Shown here piece after piece: positions 4,517-20,093 of a stretch of DNA of 21,069 nt. The stretch's first letter is position 1; each line of letters opens with the position of its first letter. The notes under the pieces were generated by a model. That model was not told where the DNA came from. It made no database searches and saw nothing but the letters and a program-made list of their open reading frames with translations. This stretch comes from a virus, in the IMG/VR virus record IMGVR_UViG_3300047546_000892, positions 1 through 21,069 of that record, one strand, 5' to 3'. The translations under genes were made by a program, and so were the position numbers.

Positions 4517-4870
4517 TTATCCTAGTATAAATGTTTGACTTAAAGGAACATTGGGACCACCAAGTACTAAAGGTCCACCAAATCTTCCTGAATTGGATGG
4601 TGATTCTAAAGGAGCATTAGATACTGCTGCTCCTCCATAAATTGTAGCTCCACATCCAGTTTTACTACCATAAACTGAAGTAACTTTTCCTTCAGTTTTA
4701 AAGTTTCCTGAACCATTGACAATCTTAGTTATACCATGACCAGGAATAGGGCAGGAGTGTAAATCTCCTACCCTAGCTGTTAGTACACCTTCAGTCTTTG
4801 TGACAGCAGAGCATGTAATAATAGATCCACCATGACTACTGCTATCATTAAGTCTAGCAATTAATGCCAT
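4517..4870 (-). CDS. 5.4: PAAR-domain tail-spike tip protein, gp5.4-like
   Basis: 117 aa. The core RVGDLHSCPIPGHG (residues 33-46), followed by VNGSGNFKTEGK and TGCGATIYGG (to about residue 80), is the classic PAAR pattern. His13, His38, Cys40, His45 and Cys73 are candidate metal ligands. PAAR proteins sharpen the membrane-piercing spike of contractile tails; in T4-like phages the equivalent is gp5.4, which caps gp5. The C-terminal tail after residue 85 is Pro/Gly/Ser-rich and may contact neighbours. The ATG overlaps the GH19 enzyme stop by one base (TAATG), tightly coupling spike tip and muralytic enzyme. In T4, gp5.4 lies beside gene 5, so its place in a fibre cluster before gene 13 is different. 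The family call is firm; the symbol is by analogy. Confidence 0.9.
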   Translation of the reverse strand: MALIARLNDSSSHGGSIITCSAVTKTEGVLTARVGDLHSCPIPGHGITKIVNGSGNFKTEGKVTSVYGSKTGCGATIYGGAAVSNAPLESPSNSGRFGGPLVLGGPNVPLSQTFILG

Positions 4871-5484
4871 TAAGCACCAAGAATCTGTTTGAACTCTTCA
4901 GTGTGCTTCTGACGATCCTCTAGACCAATAGTACCACCGTTGATCTTTTTAGTAACTGCTGTAACATCGTCAGCATCAGCTAATTTGTTAAGACCATTCT
5001 TGTGCCAGAACCATGCTGCTGATTCAACTGCACCTTCTGGTGTTCCAAGATACTCAACAACCTGATCTAGATCTACACCCATATCACCAGCAAGTGATGT
5101 ATAATTTGAACGACCGGTCAACTGAATTAAACCGCGACCACGAAACTTATATCCATCACCAGATGCTTCATCACCATTTCCCATACGTGAAGAATACACT
5201 ACGTTTGCAATCTTTTCTGGCTGTCTTGCATAATCGTTTGGATCTTTATCCTTAAAATACTTTGGAAAGATCTTCGAAAGGCCATCAGCTGAATAGTTTA
5301 GGTTTTCTTCGATAACTCTGAAACCACCAGACTCGTGTGCAGTTTGTGCAAGAAAATGTGAAAGACGTAGTGCAGAATTAATTTCATATTTTTCTGAAAG
5401 TGTATCTAGACTTGATACGAGAGCTGATACGACATCTGCATCTGAACTTGGATATCCGTGCTTAATTTGTTCTTCAGTAATCAT
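4870..5484 (-). CDS. GH19-type (chitinase-fold) muralytic enzyme
   Basis: 204 aa. The family signature is clear: AQTAHESGGFRVIEENLNYS (residues 46-65) holds the expected catalytic Glu51 and the second acidic residue Glu59 or Glu60. It is followed by YKFRGRGLIQLTGRSNY (112-128) and KKINGG (179-184). Phage GH19 proteins of this size usually cleave the peptidoglycan glycan strand. No signal peptide, membrane segment or separate wall-binding domain is seen. A strong AAGGAG (5491-5496), spaced 6 bases from the ATG and overlapping the upstream stop, suggests high expression. The product is translationally coupled to the PAAR spike-tip gene downstream. It could be an endolysin for release, or a virion enzyme used in entry; the coupling favours the second, but this is inference. 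No holin is recognised nearby. Confidence 0.9.
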   Translation of the reverse strand: MITEEQIKHGYPSSDADVVSALVSSLDTLSEKYEINSALRLSHFLAQTAHESGGFRVIEENLNYSADGLSKIFPKYFKDKDPNDYARQPEKIANVVYSSRMGNGDEASGDGYKFRGRGLIQLTGRSNYTSLAGDMGVDLDQVVEYLGTPEGAVESAAWFWHKNGLNKLADADDVTAVTKKINGGTIGLEDRQKHTEEFKQILGA

Positions 5485-6972: not shown

Positions 6973-7992
6973 TTATGTAGTTGGGAAGCCTTTAGCAGAT
7001 ATTACTCCATACCAAGATGCTCCAGCATTGGTTGTCATTAGTGTTATAAAGTCTGTGTAGTTTGCTTGTGTAGAGAGAGTAGGACCATTGGGTGAATAGA
7101 TACCTTCACCAGCTGGCCAGTAAATTGTTTGGTTAGACCAATCAACTGTTCTTGATCCTGTTCCATCTTGTTTCAGCATTATTGTAATACTATAAAGACG
7201 ACCTGTTACTAATCCAGCTGTACTCATAACTACCTGTACTATTGGTGCATTAAGAGTTATTGTGTTGATGTTACCATCTCTAACATCTACTGATACAGCA
7301 GATGTTGAATTTCCTGTTGATTTAACAGTTTCACTATAGTTCTTAAAAGTAGGATTTAAAATAGTATTGCTGCTAAAGTTAACGTCAGTAGTAACATTGT
7401 TTGTCATGTATGTGTTAGAATCAAAGAACAAACCATTTGCTGTTGCATTAACTCTTACATAATTTGATGCTTTACCAGAATAGCTTTGAGGAGTATCGGT
7501 TAATTGAGTGAATCCAATTGTTCCTGGACCACCTGCAGATCCTTGATATCCCACTGATCCTTGATATCCAACAGAACCAAGATAACCAGCAGAACCTATT
7601 GGTCCTTGATCGCCTACTGATCCTGAATATCCAACAGAACCTTCGGATCCTTGATAACCTGCCGAACCAACAAAACCTACAGATCCAGTATAACCAGGAC
7701 CACCAGCACCAACTGAACCTTGGTAACCTACAGCACCTTGTGGACCATCACCACCAGTTGATCCTTGGAACCCCACTGATCCAGTGTAGCCACCAAGACC
7801 TTCTGATCCTTGATAACCAGCAGATCCTCTGTATCCTACTATTTCATTTTGATTGATACCTAGAAGTTCTGAAACTGAGGCATTGGACCAATATGGTCCA
7901 CTTGATCCAACAAGAATCAAAGCACCTACTGGAGCTTGACCTCCAGTAGTGTTAGCGGTATCAATCTGGGAAACGTAAATTTTGGTGGCCAT
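6973..7992 (-). CDS. Collagen-like tail-fibre protein (339 aa)
   Basis: 339 aa in three parts. Residues 1-52 (starting MATKIYVSQIDTANTTGG) form a short head resembling attachment segments of phage fibres. Residues 53-159 are a collagen-like run of 35 Gly-X-Y triplets, mostly GYx-GSx, with one break (a two-residue GP unit). Residues 160-339 are globular: FTQLTDTP..YSGKASNYVRVN, a beta-rich body, and an end resembling that of the 245-aa protein at 15603-16340 (SITIMLKQDG...VDW...W..SWYGVISAKG). It is likely a trimeric fibre with a collagen-type shaft. A perfect TATAAATA lies 27 bases before the ATG, and an inverted repeat sits between them. This gene probably opens the unit running to the Gly-rich gene at 2655. 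Confidence 0.82.
   Translation of the reverse strand: MATKIYVSQIDTANTTGGQAPVGALILVGSSGPYWSNASVSELLGINQNEIVGYRGSAGYQGSEGLGGYTGSVGFQGSTGGDGPQGAVGYQGSVGAGGPGYTGSVGFVGSAGYQGSEGSVGYSGSVGDQGPIGSAGYLGSVGYQGSVGYQGSAGGPGTIGFTQLTDTPQSYSGKASNYVRVNATANGLFFDSNTYMTNNVTTDVNFSSNTILNPTFKNYSETVKSTGNSTSAVSVDVRDGNINTITLNAPIVQVVMSTAGLVTGRLYSITIMLKQDGTGSRTVDWSNQTIYWPAGEGIYSPNGPTLSTQANYTDFITLMTTNAGASWYGVISAKGFPTT
7516..7836 (-). repeat. Collagen-like Gly-X-Y repeat tract (35 triplets)
   Basis: This codes for residues 53-159 of the collagen-like protein. Most triplets alternate GYQ/GYT/GFQ with GSV/GSA/GSE, giving an 18-base period at the DNA level (for example repeated gatccttgatatcc on the plus strand). Phase is lost once, at about residues 98-99, where a GP unit lacks its third residue. 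Proline is scarce, so the helix cannot depend on hydroxyproline. Confidence 0.88.
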
Positions 7993-8414: not shown

Positions 8415-8422
8415 TATTTATA
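8415..8422 (-). promoter_or_regulatory. T4-type late promoter (TATAAATA)
   Basis: A perfect TATAAATA on the minus strand, 26 bases upstream of the 119-aa ATG. The TAA stop of the Gly-rich 603-aa gene (8418-8420) lies inside the motif, so promoter and coding end share bases. Confidence 0.75.
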
Positions 8423-10229
8423 CAGCTGTTAATGTTCCAGAAGATGTAAATGTGTGAACGATGGTAGTTCCACTATTGATAGCAGTCATAGTACCTCCTA
8501 TAAATCTTGCAGGAGATGGATATGTTAATATTACTATACCAGAACCTCCAGATCCACCTACACCGCCACCAGTTGCACCACCTCCGCCACCTCCACCTGT
8601 ATTAGTTGTACCTGGTGCACCAGCTGCTCCAGAAGATGCAGTATTGCCATTACCACCTCCTCCTATACCGCCAGTACCTATAGTAAAGGTTGCTGTTGCT
8701 CCACCACCACCTCCACCAGCATAAGCAGTATTAGATCCGGATATACTAGTATAAATTCCTATACCACCATTACCGCATGCAACTGTTGTGGCTGCAAATC
8801 CTACAGCTCCTGCGCCTCCTCCTCCACCACCTGGAACTAAGTTTAATCCACCAGCATTAGCTTGACCACCATTATTACCAAAACCAATATACGTAGCTGT
8901 AGGTTGTAGACCTGTTCCTCCTAAACCTGCAGTACCAGCGCTGGTACCTGCTCCACCACCTCCACCAGATCCACCATTAAACCCAGCTACCCCTGATGCG
9001 CCGGCATTATAACCACCACCACCTCCACCAATAGCTGTTAACACACCATCAATTGAAGTATTTGTACCATTAGCAGAAGCTCCCCCACCAGCTCCTATTA
9101 TAATAGTTATTGAACTATTTGTAGTATAGTAAATGTCGTAAGTATTACTAACAACACCACCAGCACCACCACCTCCACCCCAGTTAGTACCACCTCCGCC
9201 ACCACCACCAATTAGCAATATAGAAGTAGTAACTACGTTTATTTGAGGAGCTTCAGTTAATGCATATCTAATAATTACTGCACCGTTAGAACCGTTTGAA
9301 CCACTAGAAGTAGTAGCGGCACCACCCTTACCATAAGATGCAGGATTAGTAAACCATGAATAAGTTAATACTGCTCCCCCATCAGGATTGCCATTAGCTG
9401 AATAAGGGCTGGAACCTAAATTAGAATTGCCACCACCACTATTATCACCAGTAGAAGTATTCTGTCCTGCACCACCTAAAGATCCTCCACCACCACCAGC
9501 AAATCCACCACCATCACCACTAAAGTTTGCACCGGTACCACCTGTAAAGGAACCACCACCTACGTTACCATTAGTTTGAACTCCACCCCCTGCAGATGCA
9601 GCGTCGTTAGCTATACCTTCGTTTGCTCCACCACCTCCGGAACCACCACCAGCTATAACATATTGTATACCACCACCTACAGAAGCAGTTGTAAATGGTC
9701 CTCCTATCACACCAGACCAGCCACCACCACCGCCGCCCCCACCTGATGTGCCGGTAGCACCAGCATTACCACCAGGCCCCCCACCATTGCTTCCTCCAAG
9801 ACCACCGCCAGCGTTTGCAACAGAAGTACTACCAGCCCCACCACCGCCTCCTACATAAACGTTATAACTGCCTGCTAGTAAACTGTGAACTCCGTATACC
9901 AATGCACCTCCAGCACCAGCTCTTCCAGCTACAGCATCAGCACCACCACCGCCACCACCGCCACCAATAGCAATAATTTCTACGTTAACTGTTCCAGATT
10001 TACTACTAATATAAAATGCACCATTAGAAGTAAATGTACGAGTAACATATGTAGAGTTAGCAGTTGCAAAACTAGCATTACTAGTAATAATAAAAAAAGG
10101 GCTGGTGGGTGTAGGAATAGAGGGTAAAAAATTAAAATCTTTAAATCTTGATATTTTACTGCTTACATTACTGTTAGCAATATTACGTTTGGTATTTCTA
10201 TATGTTCTTCCAAATGATTTTACTGCCAT
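8418..10229 (-). CDS. Large Gly-rich fibre/adhesin-like protein (603 aa)
   Basis: 603 aa. Residues 1-44 are a non-Gly head (MAVKSFGRTYRNTKRN..., PSIPTPT) that aligns with the head of the 920-aa LamG protein. Residues about 63-321 form a first Gly-rich unit, opening with TRTFTSNG...VNVEIIAIGGGGG and closing with GAVIIRYAL. Residues 331-570 form a second unit, opening VVTTSILLIGGGGG and closing GSGIVILTYP. Both match the strand/poly-Gly/strand plan of phage Gly-rich surface proteins. Residues 578-603 (GGTMTAINSG..VHTFTSSG) look like the opening of a third unit that stops early. A receptor-contact role is inferred from the family look and location. The ribosome site is weak. The plus strand is full of CCACC repeats, and the apparent proline-rich frames there are shadows. 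Confidence 0.78.
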   Translation of the reverse strand: MAVKSFGRTYRNTKRNIANSNVSSKISRFKDFNFLPSIPTPTSPFFIITSNASFATANSTYVTRTFTSNGAFYISSKSGTVNVEIIAIGGGGGGGGADAVAGRAGAGGALVYGVHSLLAGSYNVYVGGGGGAGSTSVANAGGGLGGSNGGGPGGNAGATGTSGGGGGGGGWSGVIGGPFTTASVGGGIQYVIAGGGSGGGGANEGIANDAASAGGGVQTNGNVGGGSFTGGTGANFSGDGGGFAGGGGGSLGGAGQNTSTGDNSGGGNSNLGSSPYSANGNPDGGAVLTYSWFTNPASYGKGGAATTSSGSNGSNGAVIIRYALTEAPQINVVTTSILLIGGGGGGGTNWGGGGGAGGVVSNTYDIYYTTNSSITIIIGAGGGASANGTNTSIDGVLTAIGGGGGGYNAGASGVAGFNGGSGGGGGAGTSAGTAGLGGTGLQPTATYIGFGNNGGQANAGGLNLVPGGGGGGAGAVGFAATTVACGNGGIGIYTSISGSNTAYAGGGGGGATATFTIGTGGIGGGGNGNTASSGAAGAPGTTNTGGGGGGGATGGGVGGSGGSGIVILTYPSPARFIGGTMTAINSGTTIVHTFTSSGTLTAV

Positions 10230-10644: not shown

Positions 10645-11367
10645 TCAGTAAGCCGTAGCTTCATCCCATTCAACAGTTACTACTAGTGCTGCAGTTCCTG
10701 CACCAGTAGTACCACCAATAAATGCAGCATCATTCTTAATTCTAAATCCTTCACTTGCAGCAAGTGTAAGAGGGTATGTAATAGCGCTACCTTGATCAAT
10801 AAAACCAGGTGATGTTGCATTATAAGCAGTAAAGAAATCTCTTAAACCTGCTAATGGAAATGTAGTTACTGAGCCAGCAGTACCACCAAGAATAACTTGT
10901 GCCATCTGTACGGTATCTTCAGTTGAAGCTGTATCACCTGTAATACCAGCACCAGATGCATATATTACCATCGATGCTGCAGATGTGGACATAGATGTTC
11001 TTTTTTTAGCCACTAATGCGTTAGCTTGACCTACACCATATCCAGTACCACCTGTTGTACCTTGTGTAAATGAGGTAGGTACACGATATAGTGAAAATGA
11101 TGGTCTTGCAGTAGTAGTAAACCCGGTAGTAATTATTTGAATACCAATTTGTACTGATTTAATTAAACATAAACCAGTACCTGTATTTCTAAAAGTAAAC
11201 AGAATACCGTTTGCAGATGTAATGCTAGAAAATGTTATCGTACTGCTAACCAAAGAAGTACGATAAGATCCTGTTATTTCATTAGGACGAACAGTTGCTC
11301 TCATAGATGCTGTTGAACGATCAACAGTTACGAGATCATTTGTTACACCAGACTGTATATAACCCAT
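10645..11367 (-). CDS. Phage virion-type protein, paralogue of the preceding gene (240 aa)
   Basis: 240 aa, beginning MGYIQSGVTNDLVTVDRSTA. It shares with the 213-aa protein at 11399-12040 the segments RPNEITGS, LVS.TI, F..TGTG.C..+SVQ, GLRDF, LA.xEGFRIKND.AF and the closing VVTVEW.EATAY, so the two are tandem duplicates. The main difference is length: this copy has extra residues, including an insertion near FITAYNATSPGFIDQGSAIT. It is beta-rich by look, without membrane segments, and is probably a virion surface or fibre component. Function is unknown to me. It has a good AGAAGGAA ribosome site. Confidence 0.72.
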   Translation of the reverse strand: MGYIQSGVTNDLVTVDRSTASMRATVRPNEITGSYRTSLVSSTITFSSITSANGILFTFRNTGTGLCLIKSVQIGIQIITTGFTTTARPSFSLYRVPTSFTQGTTGGTGYGVGQANALVAKKRTSMSTSAASMVIYASGAGITGDTASTEDTVQMAQVILGGTAGSVTTFPLAGLRDFFTAYNATSPGFIDQGSAITYPLTLAASEGFRIKNDAAFIGGTTGAGTAALVVTVEWDEATAY

Positions 11368-11398
11368 TTTGTCAATTCCTTCTCAATTTGAGTTAATA

Positions 11399-12040
11399 TC
11401 AGTATGCTGTTGCTTCTTCCCATTCAACCGTAACAACAAGGTTGCCTGAACCAGTTGCAGCAAATGCAGTATCGTTCTTGATACGGAAACCTTCGTTCTG
11501 TGCAAGTACTAATGGATAAGCAGAAGCATTGTAAGGACCAATAAAGTCACGAAGACCGTCAACAGGTGTTGTTGTAATAGATGCAGGAAGGTTAAGAAGA
11601 ACATGTCCGTATGCAACAGAATCTTCAGCACCCACTGTATCACCAGTAATTACCGTAGTTGTACCAATAACTGCTGCAGCATTTGGTGTTGATTGAGATG
11701 TTCTTTTTTTATTAACTGAGAATGTAGTTAGAGTACCGTTAGTTGTACCTTGTGTGAATGATGAGCGAACTACATAAAGACCAAGACGCATTGAACCCTG
11801 AGTGTATGCAGTTGTTACTTGTTCACCAACTTGTACTGAACGAACTATACAAACACCAGTACCAGTATACTTAAATGTGTAAAGAACACCAGCTGCAGTA
11901 GAGGCAGCAATAGTACCTGAGACTAATGATGCACGGAATGAACCGGTTATTTCATTAGGACGTAGATTAACACGAGCAGCGCTGAGTGTCGGATCAACTG
12001 TCAAAGTTGCAGTAGATGCACCTGATTGAAGTACAGCCAT
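11399..12040 (-). CDS. Phage virion-type protein, tandem paralogue (213 aa)
   Basis: 213 aa, beginning MAVLQSGASTATLTVDPTLS. RPNEITGSFRASLVSGTI, FKYTGTGVCIVRSVQVGEQV, GLRDFIGPYN, EGFRIKNDTAF and VVTVEWEEATAY are shared with the downstream 240-aa protein. An AAGGAG site precedes the ATG. Base use looks slightly less AT-rich than in the 240-aa copy (many gaacc/gcacg stretches), so the two may have diverged some time ago or come from different sources; no numbers were computed. The position in the fibre cluster implies a virion role, otherwise unknown. Confidence 0.72.
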   Translation of the reverse strand: MAVLQSGASTATLTVDPTLSAARVNLRPNEITGSFRASLVSGTIAASTAAGVLYTFKYTGTGVCIVRSVQVGEQVTTAYTQGSMRLGLYVVRSSFTQGTTNGTLTTFSVNKKRTSQSTPNAAAVIGTTTVITGDTVGAEDSVAYGHVLLNLPASITTTPVDGLRDFIGPYNASAYPLVLAQNEGFRIKNDTAFAATGSGNLVVTVEWEEATAY

Positions 12041-12055
12041 TTTATTTTCTCCTTA

Positions 12056-12496
12056 TTAAGATAGAATGTAATTAAAGAAACGAGTATTAGAAACTGGTCC
12101 AGGTGTAGCTACTATGTAATAAGAAATTACACCGTTGGAAGAAACATATGCAGAGCAGTTGAAGTTATCAAACTCACCTTCATCGCCATAGTAGGCTGTT
12201 GTAGAAGAACCATTTGATGCAGCACCGCATGCCCACATTGATACAGAAGTAACATACGTACTATTAGCAATTGCTCTTGGATCAGAAATAGTACCTGCTT
12301 CAGAATAAACTGCATTAGGACCAAAGTCAACACGTACCATTTCTTGAGCTTTTTGTAAAGCCCATCCACCAGGGGTTACTCCGTCATGAACGTGAATAAC
12401 CTCTGTGTCCGTATTGATAGTAATTTCACCATTTGCACCAGTGAATGCTTGTGTTGATGCAATATTGCCTCTTCTAAGTTGAAGCACAGTAGCCAT
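12056..12496 (-). CDS. Protein with tropism-determinant-type N-terminal domain (146 aa)
   Basis: 146 aa. Residues 1-45 (MATVLQLRRGNIASTQAFTG, then NGEITINTDTEVIHVHDG and TPGGW) match the N-terminal fold found at the start of many phage fibre proteins, including the Bordetella phage major tropism determinant: LQxRRG...F.G..GEI..DTD...+.VHDG.T.GG. Residues about 50-146 are an unrecognised beta-rich domain with several aromatic residues (SMWACGA, GDEGEFDNFN, ending FFNYILS). A fibre or baseplate-periphery role is likely. A GAGGAGC-type ribosome site lies ahead of the ATG. No variable repeat or reverse transcriptase is seen, so there is no sign of a diversity-generating system. Confidence 0.78.
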   Translation of the reverse strand: MATVLQLRRGNIASTQAFTGANGEITINTDTEVIHVHDGVTPGGWALQKAQEMVRVDFGPNAVYSEAGTISDPRAIANSTYVTSVSMWACGAASNGSSTTAYYGDEGEFDNFNCSAYVSSNGVISYYIVATPGPVSNTRFFNYILS

Positions 12497-12506
12497 TAAT
12501 TGCTCC

Positions 12507-12848
12507 TCAAATATTTAAATCTATTGTAGCAGTACCGTTGAAGGGAGTAGTAGAACAATCATATGTATAAGCGTACACAGATTCACTACCAAGTGTATTT
12601 GTATAATCTGTAGATAGGTCTCCAAGATCACCAGATGGAAATGCTAACGAAATGGTTCCAACAGGTATCCAGCCACCACCAGCTGTACTTGAAATATATG
12701 TTTCGAAAATACCAAGTGTGGAATTAAAGCGAAATTGTCCAGCTGAATAAGATGTCACACGATCAGTAGTAGTTCCTACTGCAGTAACAAAAGAATTTCC
12801 AACAACTTGCAGGCCATTTTTGACCCTAAAATCTGATTGATTAGCCAT
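12507..12848 (-). CDS. Small fibre-associated protein, KNGLQV start (113 aa)
   Basis: 113 aa. It begins MANQSDFRVKNGLQVVGNSF, a start I associate with small structural proteins and fibre proteins of marine T4-like phages. The middle (GQFRFNSTLGIFETYIS..GGWIPVG) resembles the G.iRyN...g.fE.y....W...G motif common at fibre ends. The end is GTATIDLNI. No enzyme motif or membrane segment is seen. It probably opens a transcription unit, because a perfect TATAAATA lies 32 bases upstream of its ATG. The next gene begins 11 bases after its stop. Confidence 0.7.
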   Translation of the reverse strand: MANQSDFRVKNGLQVVGNSFVTAVGTTTDRVTSYSAGQFRFNSTLGIFETYISSTAGGGWIPVGTISLAFPSGDLGDLSTDYTNTLGSESVYAYTYDCSTTPFNGTATIDLNI

Positions 12849-12880
12849 CTATCCCTTTCCAGACGCTATCTTATATATGC

Positions 12881-12888
12881 TATTTATA
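12881..12888 (-). promoter_or_regulatory. T4-type late promoter (TATAAATA)
   Basis: A perfect TATAAATA directly after the stop codon of the 904-aa gene and 32 bases before the 113-aa ATG. It would drive the genes from 12848 to 8418. It is recognised by motif and position. Confidence 0.75.
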
Positions 12889-15603
12889 TTATCTATCTTC
12901 AAATTTACGAGCAGGTGGGTTAAAGTTAGCAGTATAACGTGCTGATCTAGTTATACGCATTTCATCCACATAACCAGCAAAATAGTTAGTAGCTGCTCCT
13001 GTGATACCACCATAAGCTGCTCCAATGTAAATAAATGCACCAGCAACGCCAGCTGATGCAGCGGCAGTTGCTACGTAGGCAGAAGACACACCTGCTACCC
13101 CATTAATATATATGGTAATAACACTATTATTTAAAACTAGTGCAACATGATTCCATGTATTCAATGTAACCGCTGAAGTAGTTTGATATATTTGAGCAGT
13201 ACCAGTCCAGTATCTCCATACCACGTTTCCAGCACTATTAAGGACTAACTCCCAATTATTACCACCACCGATAGCTGAATTTGATATGATGGGCTTGTAG
13301 TTAGCAAAACTAGTAGGATATATCCATCCTTCTATAGTGTATGAACCTGTTGTAGCCCAATCAAAATTTAAACCTGTAATACTATATGTATGTGATAGAT
13401 AATCTGTAGTACCATTAAAAAACATACTACTTCTACCAAACTTGCTTTGTGTTGTTGAGATGGATGAACCACCGTAAGTAGCAAAATTATATCTTCCTGT
13501 TTGATCTATTATTCCACCATCAGAAGAATTAATAAGAAGTACTGTATTTCCAATTGGTTGTAGTGGAGTTGTAGGTGGTGTAAAAGCAGCAGGGTACAAA
13601 CCTGTACCATTCAATAATCTTATATTAGATACGTATCCAGCTACGTAAGTACTTCCCGCAGGATCTTTACCTGAAGTAAATCTCAATGGGTCAGTCCATG
13701 TTGAGGTGTCGGCAGTATTACCAATTAGAGCACCATTAAGATATAATCTAGAAGTACCACTATTTCTAGATACAGCTATATGGTTCCATCTATTCATGAA
13801 TGCAGCATCTGTGATTGATACAGATATTAAACTAGTTGCAGGAGAACCAACACCAGAGATATAATCTAAATTACCTGTAGTTTGAAATACTAAGCCATAA
13901 CGATTGTTACCAGTTGCAGCAGCAAATTGTATTAAATCGTCCCTATTACCACCAGCAGTAATGTATGCCCAACATTCCATAGTAAAATTATTACTTCCTG
14001 GATTGAAAGATTGTAGATATTGTCCTGATTGTATATAATCTGAACTTGCATTAAATAAAATACTGCTGCCAACTTTATTTTTAGAATAAGCAGCACTAGG
14101 AACAAATGGTGAGAATGGTTGTATAGAAGGAGGAGTGCCGTTAGTAGTTAAAGAAAAATTACTAGTAGAGTTGTCTATAAATCTATTAGATTGACATGTT
14201 AATAATATAGTGTTTGCTATAGCTGTAAGAGGGGTAGTAGGAGGAGTAAAATTATCAGTATAAACTGCTGTGCCTTTAACTACACGAAGATTGGAAATAT
14301 AACCAGCCCAATAATTTGTAACTGCATTAGTTTTAGCACCTATAGTAGGATTACCAGAAAATTGTGTATCAACAAATGTAGTCGTAGATGCTATTGCTTG
14401 AGTAGCCCCTAATACTCCATTAACGTACAATTTAATTGTAGTTGTACTATCTCTTGTTAATACTACATGATTCCATTGATTTAAATTAGCTAACACAGTT
14501 GATGTAGCGGTAACTGCTGTTTGATTTGTACCTCTAATATCAGTAAAGAATGCTCTTGTTGTTCCGTTAAATTGTATATTTAAATTATCTACTGTTGTAC
14601 CATATATTTGAAATACAGTTTGTATAGTACTAGTTGATGAAGTATAAACCCAAGCTTCTATTGTCCAGTTACCTGTACCAAATTGATAAGTTGTTCCAGG
14701 TGATGGAGTAGAGATATAATCTGAACTACCGTTAAAATAATTACTCCAACCTGTTTGACTAAACGGACTAAATGTACCTTGTGCTGGTTTACCACCACCC
14801 AATACTATAGCCGGTCCACCTGTAGATATTGCTGGTGTTCCTGATGTAGTAAAAGTAGGATTGCTTGGACTGTTATCTTTAAATAAAGGTTGTTTAATTG
14901 ATGGAGTTTGAGCTGATGTTGGATTCTGTGCTGTTAATATTTGTGTACCATTAACATAAGGTAATTCAGAAGATGGGGGAGTAAAATTTGATGTATATAC
15001 AGCAACCCCATTAACAACTCTTAAATTTGAAATATAACCAAAAAATGGTTGAATTAATGAAGTACTTTCTATACCTATTCTAGTAGCTCCAGATCCCATA
15101 ACAAAGTTAGTACTGTTAGTAACAGTATTAACTACTGCCCCATTAACAAACAATCTTAAATTTGTTCCTTGTCTTGATGCAGCAACATGAGTCCAAGTAT
15201 TCAATATTGATGAGGGAATAGAAGTGTATTGAATAACAGTTGCAACACCAGCTTGAACAAGATAAAGAGCATTTGTATCACATACAAACCAAAATTGACC
15301 TGAACAGAAAATAGTAGGGTTAGTAGTTGCACCACCTGTTAAATATATCCATGCTTCTATATTAAAATCGTTTGTACCAATTACTGTGTTTGGTGTTAAC
15401 GTAAGGTAATCTGTACTACCGTTAAAATAATAACTAGAAGTACCATTAAATGGAATAAATGTGTTGGCTCCACTACTATCAATAAACATAGTGTTGTTAG
15501 CGTTTACAACACCATCTCCATGTAACAGTAATACTGTATTAGCAAAATTAATATCTTTTGGCTGATTAATAAACGGAGAGCCAATAGACTTAGACACAAA
15601 CAT
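12889..15603 (-). CDS. Tail-fibre-like protein with four LamG-like domains (904 aa)
   Basis: 904 aa. Four concanavalin-type LamG-like sandwiches occupy residues about 57-210, 287-455, 515-677 and 726-897. Each carries the same marks: a YFNGSTDYL-type entry, F.IEAWIY, W.HVA..R, L+VNG, and an exit like GYISNLRVVNG.AVYTSNFTPP. LamG-like domains usually bind sugars or proteins, often with Ca2+, so a role in binding host surface polysaccharide is plausible, though the ligand is unknown. The N-terminus (MFVSKSIGSPFINQPKDINF) is short and differs from the 920-aa relative. The domains match those of the 920-aa protein in order. The ATG overlaps the 245-aa gene stop by one base, making it the last gene of a coupled trio. 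Confidence 0.85.
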   Translation of the reverse strand: MFVSKSIGSPFINQPKDINFANTVLLLHGDGVVNANNTMFIDSSGANTFIPFNGTSSYYFNGSTDYLTLTPNTVIGTNDFNIEAWIYLTGGATTNPTIFCSGQFWFVCDTNALYLVQAGVATVIQYTSIPSSILNTWTHVAASRQGTNLRLFVNGAVVNTVTNSTNFVMGSGATRIGIESTSLIQPFFGYISNLRVVNGVAVYTSNFTPPSSELPYVNGTQILTAQNPTSAQTPSIKQPLFKDNSPSNPTFTTSGTPAISTGGPAIVLGGGKPAQGTFSPFSQTGWSNYFNGSSDYISTPSPGTTYQFGTGNWTIEAWVYTSSTSTIQTVFQIYGTTVDNLNIQFNGTTRAFFTDIRGTNQTAVTATSTVLANLNQWNHVVLTRDSTTTIKLYVNGVLGATQAIASTTTFVDTQFSGNPTIGAKTNAVTNYWAGYISNLRVVKGTAVYTDNFTPPTTPLTAIANTILLTCQSNRFIDNSTSNFSLTTNGTPPSIQPFSPFVPSAAYSKNKVGSSILFNASSDYIQSGQYLQSFNPGSNNFTMECWAYITAGGNRDDLIQFAAATGNNRYGLVFQTTGNLDYISGVGSPATSLISVSITDAAFMNRWNHIAVSRNSGTSRLYLNGALIGNTADTSTWTDPLRFTSGKDPAGSTYVAGYVSNIRLLNGTGLYPAAFTPPTTPLQPIGNTVLLINSSDGGIIDQTGRYNFATYGGSSISTTQSKFGRSSMFFNGTTDYLSHTYSITGLNFDWATTGSYTIEGWIYPTSFANYKPIISNSAIGGGNNWELVLNSAGNVVWRYWTGTAQIYQTTSAVTLNTWNHVALVLNNSVITIYINGVAGVSSAYVATAAASAGVAGAFIYIGAAYGGITGAATNYFAGYVDEMRITRSARYTANFNPPARKFEDR

Positions 15604-16340
15604 TAGAAGTTTTGCCCTGCAACAAATCCAAACCAGCTAGAACCATCACTAATAAATGATAATATATCTCTTTTAGTAGATGATACTGTAACAACTGGTG
15701 CGACGTTATCAGACCATGTAACACCATTCCAACCTACACCGTAGTTACCCGATCCAGTATTAATAATTAATGTAAAGCTTTGGCCAGCATTTGCTGTGGG
15801 CATGTATATTGTTGTATTGCTGGTTAAAGATAGTAAATGTAACGAACCTAGAGCTAAATTGACTGTATAGCTAGCACCAAATGTTGTATTCGTGTATGCT
15901 TGTTCTCTATACTGATTGAATGTAGAGTTGGCAATATACGTGTTGTTAACATTTGCAACTGAGATTGTATTAGAGAACGTTACAGCATTTGCAAATGTAA
16001 CGTTGTTTGCAAAAGTAACATTACTATTATAAGTTGCAAGATTGTTAAATACGATTGTATTACTAACAGCAATTGTACTGAAGTTTAATAATGTATTGAA
16101 TGAACTCCAGCTTACATTAGTTGTACTACCACCGGATATTAGTAACTGACCAGCAGTACCTTGGCTGTTGTTTGCCAAGATATAAGTTAAATTTGAGTTA
16201 CCAGTAACATTAAGATTAATTGTATTTGTAGATGTTGCTGTAGCAAAACCATTTGCAATTGTGTTTGCAAAAGAAACATTAAGGTTAGCATTACTATTGA
16301 CAATTGTTCCTAATGATGATAAATCTCTTGAATTTGACAT
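15603..16340 (-). CDS. Fibre-shaft-like protein with hexad repeats (245 aa)
   Basis: 245 aa. An Asn/Thr-rich N-terminus (MSNSRDLSSLGTIVNSNANL) is followed by NNSQGTAGQLLISGG (58-71), the module also seen in two other proteins here. Residues 107-130 are four hexads (NVTFAN NVTFAN AVTFSN TISVAN), a trimeric-shaft type repeat. Residues about 150-245 form a C-terminal beta domain (GSLHLLSLTSNTTIYMPTA, then W.GVTWS and FISDGSSWFGFVAG) resembling the end of the collagen-like protein. It sits between two TAATG overlaps, with the 321-aa gene upstream and the 904-aa LamG gene downstream, so it may link the two in one fibre. No enzyme motif is seen. Confidence 0.74.
   Translation of the reverse strand: MSNSRDLSSLGTIVNSNANLNVSFANTIANGFATATSTNTINLNVTGNSNLTYILANNSQGTAGQLLISGGSTTNVSWSSFNTLLNFSTIAVSNTIVFNNLATYNSNVTFANNVTFANAVTFSNTISVANVNNTYIANSTFNQYREQAYTNTTFGASYTVNLALGSLHLLSLTSNTTIYMPTANAGQSFTLIINTGSGNYGVGWNGVTWSDNVAPVVTVSSTKRDILSFISDGSSWFGFVAGQNF
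15951..16022 (-). repeat. Hexad repeat (four 18-bp units) in shaft region
   Basis: This codes for NVTFAN, NVTFAN, AVTFSN and TISVAN (residues 107-130 of the 245-aa protein). The 18-bp units are close at the DNA level (gtaac[gt]tt[gt]tttgcaa), so they probably arose by local duplication. Confidence 0.7.
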
Positions 16341-17305
16341 TAGACGCCTACCGCTACTCTATAAATTTTAATAGTATTGTTTGAATTAGTTGGAGTACCA
16401 GTTACAAATAAACTGCTACCCGATACGTTTGCATCAAAAGACATTAGCGAATAACTAGAATAAAGTGTTGCATATTCAGTAATAAAAGCGGATAATCCGT
16501 TATGTAATACCATTAATTCACAAAAATGATATAGGTTATTAGTTGTATCTGTAACTTGTACCATATACTTTGCTGATCTGTATAATGTCATGTTAAGCAC
16601 ATCTAGTGATACAGTCGATGTGGATGTCGTAGATACTTGACCGACAGTTTCGAATGCAACTGAACCAATAGTAACAGATGGTACAGATGACATTGATATA
16701 GATGGAGGAGTATATACTGTAGAAGACTGTGTTACAATTTGTACATCGTCACCAGCATATAGTGCTGTTATGAATGTTATTGAAGTACCATTTGTTGCAG
16801 TGTAATCTACTGTTGGTACAAGTAAAATACCGTTAACATATACTTCTATTGTATTAGGAGTATAGGATAAAGTTGCAGCATTATTGTCAACACCAGATAC
16901 AACAGTCTGGCCAGCTATTGCAGTATAGTAATATCTTGAATATGCTGTTGGTGCAGAATATATGTTATATGTTGAAGGTGTTCTTACTTCAGCTGTTACA
17001 TTGTTTGCAATAGCTTCTGTAAATGTAATTGTCGTACCTGAAATAGAATATGCAGTTGTTGGAAGTTGTCCAAGGCCTGATACAAAAACTATAGAATTAT
17101 TTGTGGTGCTGGATACAGAAAGATTAAACTGAGTATTTGAACCGTTACCAGTAAACGTGTCTGTATAGTAATTAATGGATGAATATAAAGATGATGAAGT
17201 TCCACCAGAACCCGTCCATGAGGTTCCGTTCCAAGTCCATGTCTTGTTATTTACTGTGTAAGTATCGCCAACTAATGGTGAACTTGGAAAATTAATATCA
17301 GCCAT
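16340..17305 (-). CDS. Tail-fibre protein with NFPSSP start and repeat beta domains (321 aa)
   Basis: 321 aa. It begins MADINFPSSPLVGDTYTVNN followed by TWTWNGTSW, a start common in fibre proteins of marine T4-like phages. Residues about 47-112 (TDTFTGNGSNTQFNLS...FVSGLGQLPTTAYSISG.TITFTEA) and about 145-195 (PNTIEVYVNGILLVPTVDYT..TSITFITALYAGDDVQI) are two copies of a fibre repeat sandwich, VFVNGxxx...DYT..G..ITF...P..GD.V.V. The C-terminal part (AKYMVQVTDTTNNLYHFCEL, ending IKIYRVAVG) is an unrecognised beta domain. A late promoter (AATAAATA, 17328-17335) precedes it. The end overlaps the 245-aa start by one base, so it is the first of a coupled trio and may be the virion-proximal piece. 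Confidence 0.8.
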   Translation of the reverse strand: MADINFPSSPLVGDTYTVNNKTWTWNGTSWTGSGGTSSSLYSSINYYTDTFTGNGSNTQFNLSVSSTTNNSIVFVSGLGQLPTTAYSISGTTITFTEAIANNVTAEVRTPSTYNIYSAPTAYSRYYYTAIAGQTVVSGVDNNAATLSYTPNTIEVYVNGILLVPTVDYTATNGTSITFITALYAGDDVQIVTQSSTVYTPPSISMSSVPSVTIGSVAFETVGQVSTTSTSTVSLDVLNMTLYRSAKYMVQVTDTTNNLYHFCELMVLHNGLSAFITEYATLYSSYSLMSFDANVSGSSLFVTGTPTNSNNTIKIYRVAVGV

Positions 17306-17327
17306 TTTAATCCTATATGTTTATTAG

Positions 17328-17335
17328 TATTTATT
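17328..17335 (-). promoter_or_regulatory. T4-type late promoter (AATAAATA)
   Basis: AATAAATA on the minus strand fits the NATAAATA form and lies 22 bases before the 321-aa ATG. The stop codon of the 920-aa gene (17331-17333) is inside the motif, as at 8415-8422. It is recognised by motif only; the first base deviates from T4 consensus. Confidence 0.58.
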
Positions 17336-20093
17336 GGTCTGCAAAAGCTGCTGTTGGTGGTGTGAAGTTAGATGTGTAGCGGGCAACTTTAGAAATGCGT
17401 AGATCGTCAATATAACCATTAAAATAACTGCCTACAACGTTTCCGTCAGCACCTAAAATAGGTCTATTGGCACCATTAATATATGATTGTGAGTCAGATA
17501 ATGTGCTACCAACTTGTATACCGTTTACAAACAATCTAGTAGACGTACCGCTTCTACATAATGCTATATGATACCATTGGTTTGCATTTAAAGCACTCCC
17601 GGTTATCGATGGATTTCCATTATTTGTGTAATAGTTTAATGTACTAGCATAAGTTAAAACTGCATAATTTACAGTAGTACTAGTACCAGATGGTCGACCA
17701 TCAAATAATACTTGCGTACCAGTTGTATTATTAAAATAAACCCACATTTCTACAGTAAAATCACCACTACCAAAAGCTTGTATATTTGAGACACTTGTTG
17801 TAGTAATATAATCTGTAGTTCCGTTAAATGATATACTAGTACCACCAAACTTACTTTGTGTAGAACTAACTGCCGCTGAACCATATGTAGTTAAATTATT
17901 TCTACCTGTGTTATCTATAATACCCGAATTAGTTCCGTTTAACAATAATACAGGTGCATCTGATGTTGTTGCTGGTGCGGTTGGTGGTGTAAATGTTGAT
18001 GTATATAATGCTTTACCATTCACCACTTTATAATTACTAATATAACCAGCAAAATACGTAGAAGCTATAATATTTTGCGGATCTTGTCCTATCCACATAC
18101 TAGTACCTGGTGATACTGTCCCGCTTACCGTACCTGTAGCAGCACTAACACCATTAACCCATAATGTTACCGTTGTTCCCGATCTTACTATTGCTACATG
18201 GTTCCAGGAATTTTTTAAATAAGTTCCAGAAGTCTGATTTAAATTTACCGCAGTTCCACTAATGGTTACTTGACAAGTAAGATTGTTAGCACTATTATTT
18301 CTCTGTAAAATAAATCCTGTATAACTAACACCAGCAGTACGCCATCCTAATAAAGTACCATAAGCAGTACTGCCTAAATCGTATGCCCAACATTCTATAG
18401 TAAAATCGCCTGTGAAATCAATCGATGGTACTTGAGGGGTAATATACTCAGATGTTCCATTTAAATAAAAACTACCACCCACAGATGTTGTCGAGTAGTT
18501 GTTATTAACTATAGGTGAATAAACTTGTACAGAAGGAGTGCCTCCAATAGTTAATGCATTAGCATTTAATGAACTGTCTCTTAATCTGTTATCTCTACAA
18601 GTTAAAAGCGTTGTATTATCTGGAGTGCCAATAGTAGACAATGGTGTAGTAGGTGGATTGAATGGTTCTGTATAAACAGCAATACCTTTTACAATTCTTG
18701 CATTAGAAACATAACCGTTAATAAAATTATAGTTTGTACCATCGGCATTTGTAATACCAATGTTTGTTAACCAGTTCGTTTGTGTACCACCTGTATTTCT
18801 ACTTAAATCAAAATTATATAATACTGGTCTTGCGGCTAATGCACCATTAACGTATAGATTTAAAAAATTATTTTGATCTCTAACTACTGCAATATGGTAC
18901 CAAGTATTAACGCTTATAGCAGAAGAAGATGTTACTACAGCAGGAAATGTATTAAATACTTGTTCTGAAGCTGAAAATACAACAAAACCACTCCCATCGA
19001 CTGCAATGTTCCATCCTCCGTTTTGGCCTGTACTCCAGTATTGGTCAGCAATTATAATGTTAGATGCTTTGTGTGCAGCAATATTAACCCATGCTTCTAC
19101 CGTAAACGGTCCAGTAGTAATTAATCCTGCAGCTCTAGGAAATTGGAGATAATCTGTACTACCATTAAATAAGTTAGACCATCCAGTCTGACTAAACGGG
19201 CTGAATGTACCCTGTAAAGGTTTACCAGCACCAATCTTTACAGCTGTTCCTCCGGATGATATCAAAGGATTTCCAGTAATTGTTATAGTACGATTGTTTG
19301 TACTATTATCAACAATAATAGGTGATTGACAAGTTAATAGTTGTGGTGATGTAGATGAGGTAAGAGGAACAGTCGATGGTGTAAAATTAGAAGTATAAAC
19401 TGCACTATTTGTTACCCTTACGTTAGAAATATGACCTGTAAAAGGAGAATTGTTATTAGTTGGATTGTTTTGTGCAATACTTAAATATGTAGATGTTAAA
19501 TTATTACTTGAAGTAAAAGTGCCTATTGATGTTCCGTTTAAATATACCGTCCAGTTAGTTGTTCCGTTTCTTACTACTGCTACATGATACCATGTATCAA
19601 ATGATACTTGATTAGTAGTACCGGAAAATAAAACTACGTTTTGATATGTAACTACAATTTGACGGTTAGCACCTACACTAATATCAACCCCGTCAGCAGT
19701 ATCACCTGATCTTGAATTTGTGATACAACCAGTTCCTGATGGCAGTCTAAACCATGCTTCGTATGTAACCGAACCGGTACCAGGAGCTGCAACTGTTGCT
19801 ACTAGTTTACTGCTTCCATCAAAATAATTACTATACGTCCCATTAAATGGTATATACGTATTAGCGCCACTGTTATCTAAAAACACTGTATTATTTGCAC
19901 CTGAAGTACCATCAGCGTGTATTAATAGTGTATTATATCTAAAATTGGAATCTATAGAAATAGGTCCAGGAACACTAGGTGAATAATTGAGTCTTTGAAA
20001 CTGAGATTGTCGCTTACCACTTACATTGAATGTAGTAGATTTCTGTAGACTGTTTCTACCTGTTCTTCCTAATACCTGTACTTTTTCAACCAT
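17331..20093 (-). CDS. Tail-fibre-like protein with four LamG-like domains and shared head segment (920 aa)
   Basis: 920 aa. Residues 1-45 (MVEKVQVLGRTGRNSLQKST..., SPSVPGPI) form a basic head that aligns with the head of the Gly-rich 603-aa protein. LamG-like domains lie at about 88-240, 308-482, 541-704 and 754-913, each with an FNGSTDYL-type entry, F.(V/I)E.W, W.H(V/I)A..R, L.VNG and a GYISN.+VV.G.A.YTS.FTPP exit. Linkers and domains match the 904-aa protein one for one (for example GKP.QGTFSPFSQTGWSN). The role is probably binding to a host surface glycan; the ligand is unknown. The ribosome site is weak (AGGT). The gene begins 12 bases after the 109-aa gene and is probably expressed with it. 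Confidence 0.85.
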   Translation of the reverse strand: MVEKVQVLGRTGRNSLQKSTTFNVSGKRQSQFQRLNYSPSVPGPISIDSNFRYNTLLIHADGTSGANNTVFLDNSGANTYIPFNGTYSNYFDGSSKLVATVAAPGTGSVTYEAWFRLPSGTGCITNSRSGDTADGVDISVGANRQIVVTYQNVVLFSGTTNQVSFDTWYHVAVVRNGTTNWTVYLNGTSIGTFTSSNNLTSTYLSIAQNNPTNNNSPFTGHISNVRVTNSAVYTSNFTPSTVPLTSSTSPQLLTCQSPIIVDNSTNNRTITITGNPLISSGGTAVKIGAGKPLQGTFSPFSQTGWSNLFNGSTDYLQFPRAAGLITTGPFTVEAWVNIAAHKASNIIIADQYWSTGQNGGWNIAVDGSGFVVFSASEQVFNTFPAVVTSSSAISVNTWYHIAVVRDQNNFLNLYVNGALAARPVLYNFDLSRNTGGTQTNWLTNIGITNADGTNYNFINGYVSNARIVKGIAVYTEPFNPPTTPLSTIGTPDNTTLLTCRDNRLRDSSLNANALTIGGTPSVQVYSPIVNNNYSTTSVGGSFYLNGTSEYITPQVPSIDFTGDFTIECWAYDLGSTAYGTLLGWRTAGVSYTGFILQRNNSANNLTCQVTISGTAVNLNQTSGTYLKNSWNHVAIVRSGTTVTLWVNGVSAATGTVSGTVSPGTSMWIGQDPQNIIASTYFAGYISNYKVVNGKALYTSTFTPPTAPATTSDAPVLLLNGTNSGIIDNTGRNNLTTYGSAAVSSTQSKFGGTSISFNGTTDYITTTSVSNIQAFGSGDFTVEMWVYFNNTTGTQVLFDGRPSGTSTTVNYAVLTYASTLNYYTNNGNPSITGSALNANQWYHIALCRSGTSTRLFVNGIQVGSTLSDSQSYINGANRPILGADGNVVGSYFNGYIDDLRISKVARYTSNFTPPTAAFADQ

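Follow-up and report, generated by a model that had tools for sequence, protein, structure and literature searches.

Paired linkers and unpaired LamG cores in two four-slot proteins of an uncultured T4-like phage

Gene neighbourhood and domain layout

The window, the whole stretch of DNA analysed here, is a 21,069-bp virus record that carries a T4-like structural cluster on its minus strand. Terminase small subunit, tail sheath stabilizer, head closure Hc2 and head-tail adaptor Ad2 PHROGs are found at 2-2626, and the corresponding gp16-, gp15-, gp14- and gp13-like genes stand in order, as in a T4-like contractile-tailed phage; the gp15-like tail sheath stabilizer is 44% identical to its cyanophage homologues. 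The source is an uncultured, T4-like phage, and no close DNA relatives of the two proteins described below were found among named phages. In a related contig the gp14-like gene is split over two ORFs (L111:9960-10726) and is either broken or mis-sequenced.

Further genes lie elsewhere in the window. A PAAR-motif protein followed by a GH19-like endolysin lies at 4517-5484, and a collagen-like protein with GYxGS repeats (PF01391) at 6973-7992. The neighbouring 240-aa and 213-aa proteins (10645-11367 and 11399-12040) resemble tandem paralogues with a common RPNEITGS(Y/F)R.SLVS motif, and the 146-aa protein at 12056-12496 has the N-terminal domain of the major tropism determinant (Mtd_N, PF18454).

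Proteins A and B (Table 1) each match the PF13385 Laminin_G_3 profile in four stretches, far above its cut-off of 27.6 bits (A, 250.2 bits, E 1e-74; B, 239.1 bits, E 2.6e-71). An earlier note on this DNA had described two proteins of 904 and 920 aa with four LamG-like domains each, flanking a 321/245-aa gene pair and differing at their N-termini; ORFs and profile bear this description out, and the three linker motifs that it quoted are present at their places. Throughout, a core is roughly the PF13385 domain, bounded by the FNG.(T/S)DY strand on one side and the FTPPT edge on the other, and a linker is the stretch preceding a core.

Table 1. Features of the adhesin region of the window, and the replaced core of two cultured cyanophages
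Feature	Position	Strand	Remarks
Protein A	12889..15603	-	ORF, 904 aa, PF13385 Laminin_G_3 x4
A head + linker 1 (residues 1-56)	15436..15603	-	ends in SGANTFIPFNGT; closest: L092 A-slot homologue, 61% over 56 aa
A LamG core 1 (57-214)	14962..15435	-	HMM core; best match L089 d2
A linker 2 (215-286)	14746..14961	-	GKPAQGTFSPFSQTGW; closest: A' (59-66%), B linker 2 (57%)
A LamG core 2 (287-459)	14227..14745	-	sister: L058 d4, 96/95
A linker 3 (460-513)	14065..14226	-	linker type found family-wide
A LamG core 3 (514-681)	13561..14064	-	sister: L053 d2, 96/92
A linker 4 (682-725)	13429..13560	-	GIIDQTGR...TQSKFG; C-terminal linker type found family-wide
A LamG core 4 (726-901)	12901..13428	-	groups with L017 d4 (90/66)
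Protein B	17331..20093	-	ORF, 920 aa, PF13385 Laminin_G_3 x4
B head + linker 1 (1-87)	19833..20093	-	best match: L108 gly603-slot protein, 51% over 81 aa; head matches window gly603
B LamG core 1 (88-244)	19362..19832	-	sister: L014 d3, 100/85
B linker 2 (245-305)	19179..19361	-	GKPLQGTFSPFSQTGW; closest: A linker 2, 57%
B LamG core 2 (306-485)	18639..19178	-	top matches in L037/L042
B linker 3 (486-540)	18474..18638	-	family-wide linker type
B LamG core 3 (541-708)	17970..18473	-	top matches in L080/L059
B linker 4 (709-752)	17838..17969	-	L108 gly603-slot linker, 77% over 44 aa
B LamG core 4 (753-917)	17343..17837	-	100/100 clade with L019, L012, L011 and L070 cores; top three 51-55% identity
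245-aa tail-fibre-like protein, between A and B	15603..16340	-	phrog_9017
321-aa protein, between A and B	16340..17305	-	phrog_2885/2710 tail
113-aa protein adjoining A, conserved flank	12507..12848	-	
603-aa glycine-rich protein (gly603), third adhesin slot	8418..10229	-	PF21722 Gly_rich_2
Head of 603-aa protein, homologous to B head	10101..10229	-	z = 11 against shuffles, reached by 0/500
Replaced LamG core, QB2/WH25-B gp7-like gene	L144:5989-6465, L146:5992-6465		

AF2 renders A as a chain of beta domains (mean pLDDT 70, pTM 0.41), for which Foldseek retrieves neurexin LNS and laminin LG strings. A single unit, linker 4 and core 4 of B, is predicted to be nearly all beta (pLDDT 80, pTM 0.80), from an alignment without one row from a named phage record; its Foldseek matches are ConA-like receptor-binding and lectin domains, a likeness of fold and not of common function. 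In these models the PF13385 stretches adopt the LamG/ConA-like jelly-roll fold. As members of this domain family the cores may bind glycans, and two such arrays, as the earlier note proposed, could widen the range bound.

Colinear linkers and unpaired cores

A and B are colinear, as the earlier note had it, and align end to end with 36% identity over 917 columns (E ~1e-139). Its further claim, that matching domains and linkers are closer between the two proteins than within one, holds for linkers 1 and 2, which are reciprocal best matches among the 447 linkers of the first family set, and fails for the cores. Same-position cores are 35% (A1-B1), 35% (A2-B2), 31% (A3-B3) and 32% (A4-B4) identical, within the range of non-matching pairs such as A1-A2, A2-A3 and B3-B4 (37% each) or A2-B3 (38%). 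Ranked against 455 other cores, B1 is only the 389th match of A1, B2 the 142nd of A2, B3 the 68th of A3 and B4 the 76th of A4. A tree of the eight cores pairs only the two first cores, weakly (76/78), and none of its branches reaches 80; a 64-core tree contains zero same-position A/B sisters, while A2, A3, B1 and B4 have supported sisters in unrelated viruses. The sisterhood of A4 and B4 is rejected by the AU test (p 0.0137), B4 having relatives of 51-55% identity in other viruses versus ~30% to A4; that of pairs 1, 2 and 3 is not (p 0.44, 0.50 and 0.39), because the signal is weak among cores at 30-38% identity. The expected pairing of domains by position is thus not borne out: pair 4 is rejected, pairs 1-3 are without support, and all eight cores find better matches in unrelated viruses. 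Where A and B agree in residue, they use a common codon at 56 of 107 linker and 108 of 215 core positions, about half in both, and there is thus no sign of recent gene conversion between them.

Linkers 1 and 2 pair, and the frame was seen in this phage group only, which supports descent of both four-slot frames from one ancestor. Outside the window the frame is seen in the A slot of L092 and, partly, in the gly603 slot of L094 and L111. Protein identities between L092 and the window are high among the neighbours of A (321-aa protein, 86%; 245-aa, 82%; 113-aa, 86%; 146-aa, 77%; 213-aa, 93%), and the protein in the A slot itself, A', is merely 38% identical to A. A' keeps the head of A (MFVS(K/R)S), its linker 1 (61%), its linker 2 (59-66%) and its tail (ARKFEDR), with cores 1-3 that are not the nearest relatives of those of A; the frame is retained with differing cores in a syntenic relative. 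At the DNA level, homology between the window and L092 extends over 15402-17332 (77.5%), breaks off shortly after entering core 1, is found again at linker 2 (14727-14986) and linker 3 (14028-14204), and resumes where A ends, over 10874-12972 (81%). Some relatedness is left between core 4 of A, A' and L094 (ranks 1-13), and A2 ranks 11th of 501 for B2, so that not every core has been replaced everywhere. As the head and linkers 1-2 of A are closer to A' than to B, the split between A and B predates the divergence of the window and L092 phages.

The proposal that one copy had been re-headed finds support in a third adhesin locus, whose heads are matched by the head of B. The LamG protein of L108 that is matched by B's head, linker 1 and linker 4 sits at the position of the window's 603-aa protein; by these matches B is a composite, with two ends resembling the gly603 adhesin locus and a linker 2 resembling A. 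The gly603 slot holds LamG arrays in L092, L094, L108 and L111 and the glycine-rich 603-aa protein in the window, and the position of B is taken by glycine-rich proteins in L092 (309 aa) and L094 (648 aa). The heads of B, the L108 protein and the window's 603-aa protein, and the slot contents of L092 and L094, indicate that heads and bodies move among at least three adhesin positions.

LamG arrays and glycine-rich proteins trade adhesin slots, and the same head can serve both. Among the glycine-rich proteins (window 8418-10229; L092:9041-9970; L094:8023-9969), PF21722 is recognised in two and weakly in that of L094. The A-slot protein of L094 (L094:11703-14546) is a fusion of both body types, with three LamG domains and a glycine-rich C-terminal part.

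Cores and linkers across the LamG family

LamG arrays are common in uncultured viruses. When B was used for a scan, 463 stretches matched, and all but six of these (457) are relatives. The family set gathered here holds 123 LamG proteins with 502 units (447 linkers in the first set); its members were chosen for their likeness to A, B and the flanking genes and do not make up a random sample. For linkers, the best match lies in the same slot in 324 of 447 cases (shuffled mean 89); for cores the figure is 173 of 456 (shuffled mean 90), a modest positional signal. Behind the 257 pairs of linkers that are at least 90% identical, core identity is below 50% in 232, 50-90% in 6 and at least 90% in 19; when each contig is counted once, 20.9 linker pairs remain, with cores below 50% in 17.0, at 50-80% in 0.7 and at 80% or more in 3.1. 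Gradual divergence does not give such a two-peaked picture behind near-identical linkers. Within the C-terminal unit, variation is concentrated in the core interior, where entropy is 2.47 bits; the linker has 1.42 bits and the core end 1.40.

Cores also turn up in different slots: core 4 of L011 and core 1 of L021 are 86% identical in DNA, core 2 of L011 and core 3 of L021 84%, and core 2 of L024 and core 1 of L080 93%. To the left of these moved cores, similarity is down to background immediately at the edge; to the right this mostly holds too, the similarity of the L024/L080 core running ~30 bases beyond its right edge. Between L022 and L046, DNA identity outside the cores is mostly 90-98%, whereas cores 1 and 3 are replaced; core 2 is 95% identical.

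The same is seen in cultured phages. The gp7-like baseplate gene of cyanophages QB2 and WH25-B is ~95% identical in DNA along its length, drops to 43-73% over the greater part of one LamG core (Table 1) and reaches 95-98% in its second LamG. The WH25-B core shares 89.7% identity with its S-RS29 counterpart and 70% with that of QB2, with much of the gene around it near 70-80% between WH25-B and S-RS29. This replacement between isolates bears on the concern that repetitive LamG genes of co-occurring strains were misjoined in metagenomes, a concern raised by the bulk of the family evidence, which consists of metagenomic contigs with repeated domains. A' recurs, moreover, with identical DNA in L092 and L093, which stem from different metagenomes; the L031-type array is identical in four contigs (L031-L034) and the L046 array in two. 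Identical arrays in independent metagenomes and core replacement in cultured phages make assembly artefact an unlikely cause of the core mosaics in the family, and we consider chimerism highly improbable.

Neither of two candidate details of the process was retained. Copying within a genome as a source of cores finds no echo in the identities, since the within-contig median is 37.5% versus 37.0% for random pairs, and 3 of 1644 pairs reach at least 55%. High slot-to-slot DNA similarity at core edges was likewise considered as a substrate for recombination; the edges vary and are only moderately similar between slots (identity 0.62-0.80 over the first 33 nt, 0.41-0.55 over the last 75 nt). No donor at more than 55% identity was found for any core of A or B.

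Competing histories and known systems

We consider it likely that A and B are virion proteins of the adhesin type with a common four-slot frame, whose LamG cores are cassettes exchanged between phages and between slots. Such a frame would have a head at its N-terminus, a conserved edge at its C-terminus and linkers specific to their positions, and each slot would hold a core of ~160-180 aa, swapped as a cassette. The frames of A and B would be related, probably through an old duplication and recombination, and their cores would have been acquired separately or have diverged beyond recognition. Exchange would proceed by recombination at the core edges; as the latter half of the linker comes out ordered in the prediction, exchange appears to take in most of the jelly roll and to spare its N-terminal hairpin. 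For pairs 1-3 of A and B, cores may have been replaced rather than hypermutated.

The earlier note had instead favoured duplication of a whole four-domain gene. In such a history, set in this phage lineage, both copies would have diverged and the cores would evolve faster than the linkers. The common ancestry of the frame survives from that proposal; a simple whole-gene duplication is not supported, positional pairing having failed. Full-length colinearity, the apparently private linker 1/2 frame, the weak 1-1 pairing and the AU test's sparing of pairs 1-3 speak for such a duplication, but it would have to accommodate the rejection of pair 4, the closer relatives of B4 in other viruses, the two ends of B that are closer to another locus than to A, an A/B split older than the divergence of the window and L092, and the sharp core boundaries seen in relatives; we regard it as rather unlikely. 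Independent acquisition of two LamG family members, the likeness of their linkers reflecting structural constraint only, appears distinctly improbable. It would suit linkers 3 and 4, which are family-wide types, and the full-length A-B score of 427, little above those of A-L017 (409) and B-L011 (414), yet linkers 1 and 2 pair specifically and the frame was seen only in this phage group. The exact pattern GKPxQGTFSPFS also has 0 matches in 2.9 million IMG/VR contigs, a set that may lack close relatives of the window, and since A' carries the variant GKPAPGAFTPYP, this motif alone under-counts the frame.

If cores are exchanged as cassettes, core exchange may alter host attachment, and core swapping offers phages a plausible route to new attachment targets. 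A broader reading, which we offer tentatively and place just short of probable, is that aquatic phages carry combinatorial lectin arrays, in which slot-specific linkers receive LamG cores from a shared pool moved between slots and genomes, cores within a genome being as different as random ones; the repertoire would then evolve by cassette choice and not by point mutation. With interchangeable cassettes, attachment specificity could be predicted from the identity of a core whatever the phylogeny of the phage, and QB2 and WH25-B, both cultured, provide a natural test of core-linked specificity. End-to-end similarity of LamG arrays reflects the frame and is not to be taken as orthology of binding domains.

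Several known systems invite comparison. A review (PMC7824862) reports Laminin_G_3/concanavalin A-like lectin domains (PF13385) in virion proteins of large phages, of the same Pfam family above cut-off as those of A and B; its passages on these domains note their presence and describe neither slot-specific linkers nor core exchange. T-even gp38 (S16-type) adhesins, in which glycine-rich motifs occur together with hypervariable segments (PMC6630733 and references therein), resemble LamG arrays in alternating conserved motifs with reshuffled variable segments, an analogy and not a homology. The variable parts of gp38 are loops of one polyglycine sandwich, whereas in LamG arrays they make up the greater part of a jelly-roll lectin domain, four of which follow one another; no glycine-rich family is recognised in A or B, PF21722 being found in the 603-aa protein instead. 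A 2023 study (PMC10684548) likewise describes recombining protein fragments in receptor-binding proteins; its text is without LamG, lectin or concanavalin domains, whereas in LamG arrays members of one family swap slots in a fixed frame. Diversity-generating retroelements act on phage tail fibres (e.g. PMC6199706) and, as in LamG arrays, what they vary is the binding module of an otherwise conserved protein, but they mutate point positions, whereas LamG arrays change whole cores; among the ORFs searched in the window, itself a fragment, no reverse transcriptase family was recognised. No open paper on LamG core exchange in phages was found, subscription papers lying mostly outside this coverage.

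The adhesin region can also be compared with a near-identical strain (L114/L099), to which the window is 100% identical in DNA from ~10980 downwards. Identity drops abruptly to ~83% at 11000, is back at 97-100% over 12720-12960 and falls anew inside core 4 of A; these steps point to recombination tracts around the adhesin region.
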